Assembly: GCA_015068555.1 (NCBI GenBank)
Contig: SVKI01000015.1
Coordinates: forward strand, 1 to 33,634
Origin: Oscillospiraceae bacterium
Lineage (GTDB): Bacteria; Bacillota; Clostridia; UBA1381; UBA9506
Direction of reading: 5' to 3'
Length of the DNA: 33,634 bases
Positions 4,477 to 8,205 of this stretch are shown in pieces. A program made the position numbers and the translations under genes. The first letter of the stretch is position 1; each line of letters starts with the position of its first letter. The notes beneath the pieces are model-generated. The model searched no databases. It saw only the letters and a program-made list of their open reading frames with translations, and was not told the origin of the DNA.

Positions 4477-4636
4477 CAAGTCATGCTTTTTTCGCGGTCT
4501 TCCCCATAGGAAATCCCGAACACAAACGAAAGTAAAAAAGGACAAAAAGGCAGACAGAGCCGCCCTGGTAAGCTTTTTTTCTCTCTATTTGCGTATGACT
4601 AGTCGCCCGGTTTCTTGAATCGGACATTCTCCACGG

Positions 4637-4656
4637 AAAAACCCGCCCTAAGGCGG
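4637..4656 (-). terminator. Early terminator-like hairpin in rpsJ leader
   Basis: CCGCC-TTAG-GGCGG in transcript sense (4656-4643) is followed by G and T5 (4641-4637), about 35-50 nt after the inferred start site. A competing 4-bp stem (plus-strand 4664-4667 with 4653-4656) would occupy the first arm. The stem is short, so the call is tentative. Confidence 0.4.
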
Positions 4657-4696
4657 CAACCTCCCGCTTCATCGTATGTCATGTCACAGCCCTTTA

Positions 4697-7149: not shown

Positions 7150-7178
7150 TTGACTGTTATAAAAAAGTATGATATAGT
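7150..7178 (+). promoter_or_regulatory. Sigma-A-type promoter of a small RNA locus
   Basis: TTGACT (7150-7155), an exact 17-bp spacer and TATAGT (7173-7178). The +1 expected 7 nt downstream falls at about 7185, the first base of a long inverted repeat. Confidence 0.75.
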
Positions 7179-7318
7179 ATTTTCACCACACAAATCGAAT
7201 AAGGCTTATTGCAAGGATGTCTTTTTTGTTTTTTGCAAAAAATGCATTCTCTATTTGTGCATGCCTTGTGATATGCCAAATGATTTGTGTGGTAGCAAAC
7301 AGGAGTTATGCATTTTTA

Positions 7319-7348
7319 GTGCATCGACTTATGTTGGTGCACTTTTTT
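7319..7348 (+). terminator. Intrinsic terminator 1 of the small RNA
   Basis: GTGCATCGAC (7319-7328) and GTTGGTGCAC (7333-7342) form a 10-bp stem with two G-U pairs around loop TTAT, followed by T6 (7343-7348). Confidence 0.75.
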
Positions 7349-7388
7349 ATTTGCTCTCTCGGTTTGAAAGCTACCACACACTTCCATC

Positions 7389-7414
7389 AAATCCGCTCAC
7401 CCGGCGGATTTTTT
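7389..7414 (+). terminator. Intrinsic terminator 2 of the small RNA locus
   Basis: AAATCCGC (7389-7396) pairs with GCGGATTT (7404-7411) around a 7-nt loop, within a T6 run (7409-7414). It insulates trmB, which has its own promoter just downstream. Confidence 0.75.
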
Positions 7415-7490
7415 CATTTTTCATAATCGTTCAAGTTTTCATACCACATCCATTCTACCACAAAAATCCTTAAAAAACAACCCGAGGGAA

Positions 7491-7519
7491 TTGATATTTG
7501 CCCCTATGTGTAGTATAAT
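7491..7519 (+). promoter_or_regulatory. Promoter of trmB
   Basis: TTGATA (7491-7496), 17-bp spacer, TATAAT (7514-7519); the expected start near 7526 leaves a leader of about 25 nt. The first bases of the spacer (TTTGCCCCT) are identical to those of the DUF1385 promoter at 13642. Confidence 0.8.
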
Positions 7520-7551: not shown

Positions 7552-8205
7552 ATGAGAATGAGAAAAAAGAAGCACTTAAAGGAGCGCCTGGCCGATTGTG
7601 CCGACCTGATCATCTCCGATATTATGCGGTATAACGGTGATATACAATCCGTTTTTCAAAATTCTAATCCCTTGCATATGGAAATCGGTTGCGGCAAAGG
7701 TGCCTTTATTTTAGAAACGGCAAAAAGGCATCCCGATATTAACTTTATCGCCGTTGAAAAAAACTATAACGTGTTGATTTTAGCCGCCGAAAAAATTAAG
7801 GATGCCGGCCTTTCCAACGTAAAGTTTATCGCCGGCGATGCCAATTTGTTGCGCGCTTTTGAAACAAGAACCAAATGCGATATTATCTATATCAACTTTT
7901 GTGACCCCTGGCACAAAAACAGCTACCGCAGGAGGCGGCTGACGCACGCGCAACACCTTATGCTGTGGGAAAAATTACTGCACGAAAACGGTGAAATACA
8001 TTTTAAAACCGATAATAAAAACCTTTTTGAATTCTCGCTCAACTCCTTTTCCGAGTATGACATGAAGCTGAAAAACATCACCTTTGATTTACATAATTCA
8101 GCATATAAAGACGAGAATGTTATGACAGAATATGAAAGGCTTTTCTCCGCTCAGGGTCAACCCATTTACCGCTGCGAAGCGGCCTTTCGGCAGAAAGCAG
8201 AGTAA
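7552..8205 (+). CDS. trmB: tRNA (guanine-N7-)-methyltransferase
   Basis: TrmB makes m7G46 in the tRNA variable loop using S-adenosylmethionine. The 217-residue product has the SAM-binding motif EIGCGKG (44-50), an acidic ribose-contact region (FIAVEKN) and the family signature at DPW (118-120) followed by an arginine-rich stretch (RRRRL). The usual DPWPKxxH reads DPWHKNSY here, a modest variation. AAAGGAG lies 9 nt before the ATG. It is a single-gene unit with its own promoter and a bidirectional terminator shared with nrdG. Confidence 0.93.
   Translation: MRMRKKKHLKERLADCADLIISDIMRYNGDIQSVFQNSNPLHMEIGCGKGAFILETAKRHPDINFIAVEKNYNVLILAAEKIKDAGLSNVKFIAGDANLLRAFETRTKCDIIYINFCDPWHKNSYRRRRLTHAQHLMLWEKLLHENGEIHFKTDNKNLFEFSLNSFSEYDMKLKNITFDLHNSAYKDENVMTEYERLFSAQGQPIYRCEAAFRQKAE

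Follow-up and report, generated by a model that had tools for sequence, protein, structure and literature searches.

What is encoded between a WYL-type regulator gene, which lies upstream in divergent orientation, and trmB in the window, the 33,634-nt stretch of an Oscillospiraceae genome (G000) that we analysed, and what would it act on? A preliminary description, made from the DNA letters, had placed a stand-alone small RNA there, with a rod-like fold, two terminators and a partner-switching arm. The locus is real: promoter, rod, both terminators and the complementary downstream arm were all confirmed.

The RNA locus upstream of trmB

The locus has the following features, in window coordinates.

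7150–7178 (+): sigma-A type promoter, TTGACT-17-TATAGT with a TG extension before the −10 element; 10 of 12 consensus matches, +1 at 7185
7185–7349 (+): attenuator RNA unit, short form, ending at terminator 1; 152-bit match to covariance model R1, not independent, as this RNA is one of the sequences used to build the model
7185–7196 (+): P1, 5′ strand; perfect 12-bp inverted repeat with 7282–7293
7238–7251 (+): mid strand AAAAATGCATTCTC within the rod; pseudoknot 5′ side (7238–7247 plus CTC at 7249–7251)
7282–7293 (+): P1′, the 3′ strand of the inverted repeat; covaries across the family
7294–7317 (+): linker and pseudoknot 3′ side AGCAAACAGGAGTTATGCATTTTT, doubling as the antiterminator 5′ half
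7318–7348 (+): intrinsic terminator 1, whose 5′ arm can alternatively pair with 7304–7312 (antiterminator)
7353–7380 (+): putative antisense tail GCTCTCTCGGTTTGAAAGCTACCACACA, complementary to P1′-linker in leader L084 (G000:C32:10994–11169, minus strand)
7389–7416 (+): intrinsic terminator 2, closing the long form; in the G017 copy the stem is kept and the loop changed
7491–7519 (+): trmB promoter, separate from the RNA; the trmB ORF is 7552–8205

The promoter had been called exact; its position stands, and so does its +1 at the start of the perfect repeat, but with ten matches of 12 it is good rather than exact. The rod proposed for 7185–7293 is indeed structured, the 165-nt RNA folding at −62.2 kcal/mol against −35.9 ± 3.5 in shuffles (z −7.6) and the 232-nt long form at z −6.8 against shuffles. 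It is, however, no plain rod: the mid strand at 7238–7247 pairs perfectly with 7308–7317, outside the rod, in a pseudoknot that had been missed, and CTC 7249–7251 pairs with GAG 7303–7305.

Using 241 bases as a blastn query against 60 relatives, we found one 86% match, in G017, together with many partial matches, several per genome. The G017 copy is an orthologous RNA in a sister genus; its locus is unrelated, next to folC and not to trmB. A trmB leader was rejected on these differing neighbours, and the earlier reading of a separate locus with its own promoter was upheld.

A family with alternative pairings

The partial matches led to a shared plan, and the window RNA belongs to a large family of self-terminating RNAs, apparently undescribed, from gut Clostridia. 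From 5′ to 3′, members consist of P1, which begins at +1, then AATA, a variable rod, the mid strand AAAAATGCATnCTC, P1′, a linker (R)GCAACAATCGGAG, ATGCATTTTT and the terminator. With a covariance model built from 17 compact copies, we found the family in 25 of the order's 27 genera (77 of 95 genomes). In a sample of 391 genomes from across the class Clostridia, 97 had it, representing 56 of 222 genera. A single genome can give as many as about 28 forward matches; the window's own, incomplete genome has about six copies. An exact 19-base mid-strand string occurs in 84 stretches in named records, nearly all of them metagenome-assembled genomes (MAGs) from animal guts labelled Clostridia, Oscillospiraceae or Monoglobus, and the covariance model confirms almost all of these stretches; matches in Verrucomicrobia and Veillonella were set aside as chance. 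A longer RNA variant has an extra arm in the rod and an unchanged 3′ half (L226/L038, L213, L209, L210 and L275, several of which are predicted targets of compact stand-alone tails). Across 87 copies the promoter consensus is TTG at −35 to −33, TG at −15/−14, TATAAT at −12 to −7 and T at −1, with P1 starting at +1. The promoter-to-stem register is thus not chance, and since it is the same across copies, a fixed 5′ end is part of the design. A conserved leader peptide seems unlikely: small ORFs overlap the rod, but their frame is not kept in divergent copies as read.

Covariation in the stems, which had been proposed as a check, holds across the family alignments. Among the 17 copies (alignment A1), P1, pseudoknot and terminator are 97.1% paired, against 34–51% in slid controls, and 17 pairs are changed on both sides, against 7.6 in shuffles. 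P1 is retained in all family members, with both-sided changes in 10 of its 13 pairs in this alignment, and the pseudoknot is paired in 98% of cells. An alignment of 91 rows, chosen by their mid strand, has 98.3% pairing in P1 and terminator (terminator 99.9%) and all 24 pairs double-changed; as the alignments were fitted to P1 and terminator of the model, the counts for these two elements lean upward, and pseudoknot and antiterminator lie outside the model. In alignment A3, 96 rows for which the mid strand was no selection criterion, the pseudoknot shows 92.8% pairing and 70 double-changed cells against 24.8 in shuffles. Its double-changed pairs number eight, which 39 of 500 shuffles reach, so little above chance, as fixed A-U makes up half of the pairs.

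The antiterminator, in which linker and ATGC pair with the terminator 5′ arm, is 79.8% paired, with 61 double-changed cells against 32.5 in shuffles and a covariation score of 0.273 against 0.226; the number of its double-changed pairs is no higher than in shuffles. From these alignments it is the weaker-supported of the alternative pairings, relative to the terminator and likewise to the pseudoknot. Terminator and antiterminator are mutually exclusive and are conserved across copies. An arm that switches partners had been described correctly, but the decisive switch appears to be pseudoknot versus antiterminator, ahead of terminator 1.

What follows the terminator divides the family. A Shine-Dalgarno site and an ORF lie within 160 nt past it, typically at 15–30 nt, in about 91 of 150 copies (the window's two entries counted apart), which places these members between promoter and gene as expected of an attenuator; the window copy is stand-alone. 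Judged by this arrangement, gene-coupled copies look like attenuators, that is, on/off switches. Their genes encode lipoproteins and other signal-peptide proteins, SLH and leucine-rich secreted proteins, AbrB-like, zinc-ribbon and DUF4177-like products and small proteins of no assigned family. Most of the other copies stand alone. A second intrinsic terminator follows within 190 nt in 24 of 32 stand-alone copies tested and in 1 of 35 coupled copies, a division made partly by hand.

Several recurrent arrangements were seen among the coupled genes. An AbrB/MazE-like small protein (MIVKIDSxGRILIPKKYREEF) stands behind a family leader in L113, L144, L147 and L168, from Monoglobus-type MAGs, and a small-protein family with MICxxLGE/CCFIGHR...FYVG stands behind leaders L083, L085, L224, L225, L216 and L243, in all three genera looked at. 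Leaders also occur in tandem (L134, 6406–7239; L127, three copies; L204, 1271–1894), where ORFs behind upstream copies have a truncated look that would fit duplication and later decay of leader-gene units.

A new riboswitch class would account for part of this: a ligand would stabilise the rod pseudoknot, and stand-alone copies would be decayed or free-standing riboswitches. The succession of pseudoknot, antiterminator and terminator, the exact 5′ end and the gene-coupled and tandem copies all suit such a reading. AATA and the mid strand are conserved, though no invariant unpaired core as in an aptamer was recognised. Set against the riboswitch reading, little invariant unpaired sequence is present, given a rod interior free to vary and an additional arm in some long forms, and the downstream genes share no common pathway. 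It would also leave the antisense tails described below unexplained. We therefore regard it as unlikely as a full account; it is compatible with the attenuator model that we prefer, as an input that sets the pseudoknot.

Tails of stand-alone copies and their predicted targets

In stand-alone copies, the segment between the two terminators reads as the reverse complement of the P1′-linker-pseudoknot 3′ side, often together with the terminator 5′ arm. We computed duplex energies between each tail and the 3′ regions of all copies in its genome and compared them with dinucleotide-shuffled tails. Over seven genomes, z is about 0 in gene-coupled copies and −2 to −8.4 in most stand-alone ones (medians 0 for 35 coupled and −2.75 for 32 stand-alone copies; Mann-Whitney P 1.2e-7, z and P values being indicative, as copies within a genome are related and not independent). 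Values of z ≤ −2.5 were reached by 19 of the 32 and by 3 of the 35, respectively. The strongest duplexes are L199 with L198 (−68 kcal/mol), L193 with L213 (−60), L054 with L226 (−60) and L055 with L241 (−52).

The best partners are, by genome: in G015, L213 for L193, L195 and L198, L209/L210 for L062, L190 and L192, and L198 for L196, L197 and L199; in G008, L226 for L054, L225 for L223 and L221 for L222; in G009, L056 for L237 and L240; in G017, L241 for L055; and in G440, which lies outside the order, L273 for L269 and L276 for L266/L267. Several stand-alone copies (L082, L194, L232 and L268) have no target seen among same-genome copies. With equal site numbers, the own-genome site beats random other-genome sites for 12 of 18 chosen tails (P < 0.001), and the other six have no same-genome preference. 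All of 20 tail-leader pairs examined have duplexes that take in the linker and the pseudoknot side (15–23 nt), and 15 of these duplexes also span at least 5 nt of the target's terminator 5′ arm. Complementarity to the switching region of a leader, as in antisense attenuation, thus stands out in energy against shuffles, if modestly for the window pair; the tails come from other loci, not from the strand opposite the leader itself. That stand-alone tails match the switches of their siblings suggests that family RNAs control one another.

For the window tail, the best site is the leader L084, at −39.5 kcal/mol, which 1 of 30 shuffles equals. Other-genome draws do as well in 9% of cases, in part through the better score of its target's orthologue in G017. 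Taken alone, the predicted pair is modest. L084 precedes a gene for a Cys-rich small protein, MRKKIMDVTGTPLTPSNQGKRCLGNG..., and the orthologous RNA in G017 (L055) pairs with L241, the leader of the orthologous gene, at −51.8 kcal/mol (0 of 100 shuffles). The motif CTCGGTTTN{0,9}TACCACA occurs at seven places in 95 genomes: the tail and the target-linker complement, each once in G000 and once in G017, and three unrelated sites within genes. Tail and target complement co-occur in these two genomes only. The Cys-rich protein gene also stands behind family-type leaders in at least five further genomes (G019, G008, G006, G060 and G031). No Pfam family was found for this protein (DVTGxxLTPxxxGxxCLGNG...CCCDECDY..CF), which we noted at L084 1239–1484 (−), at L241 1219–1491 (−) and in L254–L265.

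The preliminary description had the downstream arm compete for the RNA's own stem. In a purely cis device, the arm would contest P1′ with 7185–7196 in the same molecule, and the read-through RNA would refold and end at terminator 2. The complementarity is there, 7370–7380 being an 11-nt perfect complement of 7286–7296; in the centroid fold of the 232-nt molecule the arm is paired to the RNA's P1′, and kinetics favour intramolecular pairing. Yet self-pairing reaches only −29.8 kcal/mol against −39.5 for the sibling leader, a predicted trans target that is conserved together with its orthologous gene. Most stand-alone tails, moreover, have no fit to their own P1, with self energies no better than those of shuffles: L193 scores −30.1 on itself (null −33.9) and −60.1 kcal/mol on L213, and L004, L097 and L090 carry tails of another P1 type. 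A device acting in cis alone is thus quite unlikely, and we prefer to read the arm as an antisense tail directed in trans at a sibling leader, not, or not only, as a competitor for its own stem.

We consider it likely, from sequence comparison, that the window locus encodes a stand-alone RNA of a transcription-attenuator family, with a trans-acting antisense tail. With the pseudoknot formed, the terminator arm would be free and transcription would stop at terminator 1, giving a short RNA of about 165 nt; in its absence the antiterminator would pair and polymerase would read through. The read-through product would be an mRNA in most relatives and, at the window locus, an RNA of about 230 nt whose tail ends in the second terminator. 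This tail would pair in trans with the P1′-linker of the L084 leader and decide termination there. Tails that cover the 5′ arm of a target terminator are predicted to cause antitermination; the window duplex covers only P1′ and linker, the antiterminator half of its target, and might instead cause termination. Candidate inputs to the pseudoknot are a ligand, a protein, another tail or nothing.

Cascades are possible in the family because some targets are themselves tailed stand-alone copies, such as L198 in G015, where a candidate cascade runs from L196, L197 or L199 through L198 to L213. We lean slightly towards a chromosomal, RNA-only network in which each genome would have tens of paralogous attenuators, part of them in charge of genes and part in charge of tails that switch siblings, forming natural multi-step cascades in a large part of the uncultured gut Clostridia.

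Known systems and known RNAs

In the pT181 and pIP501 plasmid attenuators and their synthetic offspring, including STARs, an antisense RNA selects terminator or antiterminator, and synthetic antisense attenuators have been wired into cascades (PMC4878617, PMC10465534). The leaders described here likewise fold into terminator or antiterminator, with an antisense RNA predicted to choose in trans. The natural plasmid systems, however, are single self-antisense pairs that repress, whereas here one chromosomal family supplies both leader and antisense RNA as paralogues, each regulator carries its antisense segment downstream of its own attenuator, and an internal pseudoknot strand is the cis competitor. 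EutX and Rli55 are riboswitch-controlled sRNAs. The SreA/SreB RNAs of Listeria are trans-acting riboswitches, according to the citation of Loh et al. 2009 in PMC5387305. In these systems, too, an attenuated RNA has a second role in trans and the read-through or terminated form decides on the effector part, but they have known aptamers (SAM, cobalamin) and unrelated mRNA or protein targets; here no aptamer is known and the predicted targets are sibling attenuators. The Brt1-9 RNAs of Bartonella are multi-copy, structured RNAs of about 200 nt upstream of genes, proposed to act both as cis switch and as trans sRNA, a dual role like the one proposed here; they belong to an unrelated taxon and a single downstream gene family, and no sibling antisense tails are described for them (PMC5387305). 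T-box riboswitches also let an RNA in trans decide antitermination of an intrinsic terminator, but that RNA is a tRNA, and no T-box features were matched here in Rfam scans.

By analogy, the principle would be that of pT181-type antisense attenuation and of cis/trans RNAs, and what appears new is the union of switch and antisense regulator in one chainable chromosomal family. We know of no natural precedent for chainable switch/antisense regulator pairs from one such family. In the literature searched, no such RNA family appears in main texts; an unnamed earlier prediction may exist in supplementary motif lists. A widespread multi-copy RNA family outside Rfam appears to control secreted proteins, lipoproteins and uncharacterised small proteins of Clostridia from gut and rumen. 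Should the tails work as proposed, it would be a natural counterpart of hand-built synthetic RNA transcription cascades, each leader would gain a testable partner, and the family is predicted to supply orthogonal natural attenuator/antisense pairs.

Many copies per genome, inverted-repeat ends and some tandem copies could also mark a MITE-like mobile DNA repeat with terminal inverted repeats and no RNA function. This is very improbable given the compensatory changes across divergent copies, the fixed promoter register and the placement of most copies exactly between promoter and gene SD. Nor was the window RNA or its family matched in phages, in plasmids (blastn with one member) or in viral contigs (two conserved strings as exact patterns), and a phage or plasmid origin was rejected on these grounds.

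A 6S RNA or 6S paralogue, an option raised by the preliminary description and suggested by a long rod with bulges, is refuted on sequence and structure: RF00013 is matched neither in the window nor at E ≤ 10 within 6.9–7.9 kb, the genome's bona fide 6S RNA lies on another contig (G000:C31:21079–21267, RF00013, 94 bits), and the family has pseudoknot, antiterminator and coupled genes.

That no known RNA had been recognised was borne out. No Rfam 15 family reaches its gathering score at the locus, nothing credible appears there at E up to 10, and a tRNA/tmRNA search of the locus found none. Twenty relatives have no Rfam 15 match over the element itself, and family member L139 has none with E < 0.2. 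The only Rfam hits among the 20 relatives come from a tmRNA gene that adjoins member L006 (55–431) in G028. Elsewhere in the window, an S10-Clostridia ribosomal protein leader (RF03136, 49.7 bits), an ordinary known element, lies at 4600–4681 on the minus strand, upstream of a ribosomal protein operon.
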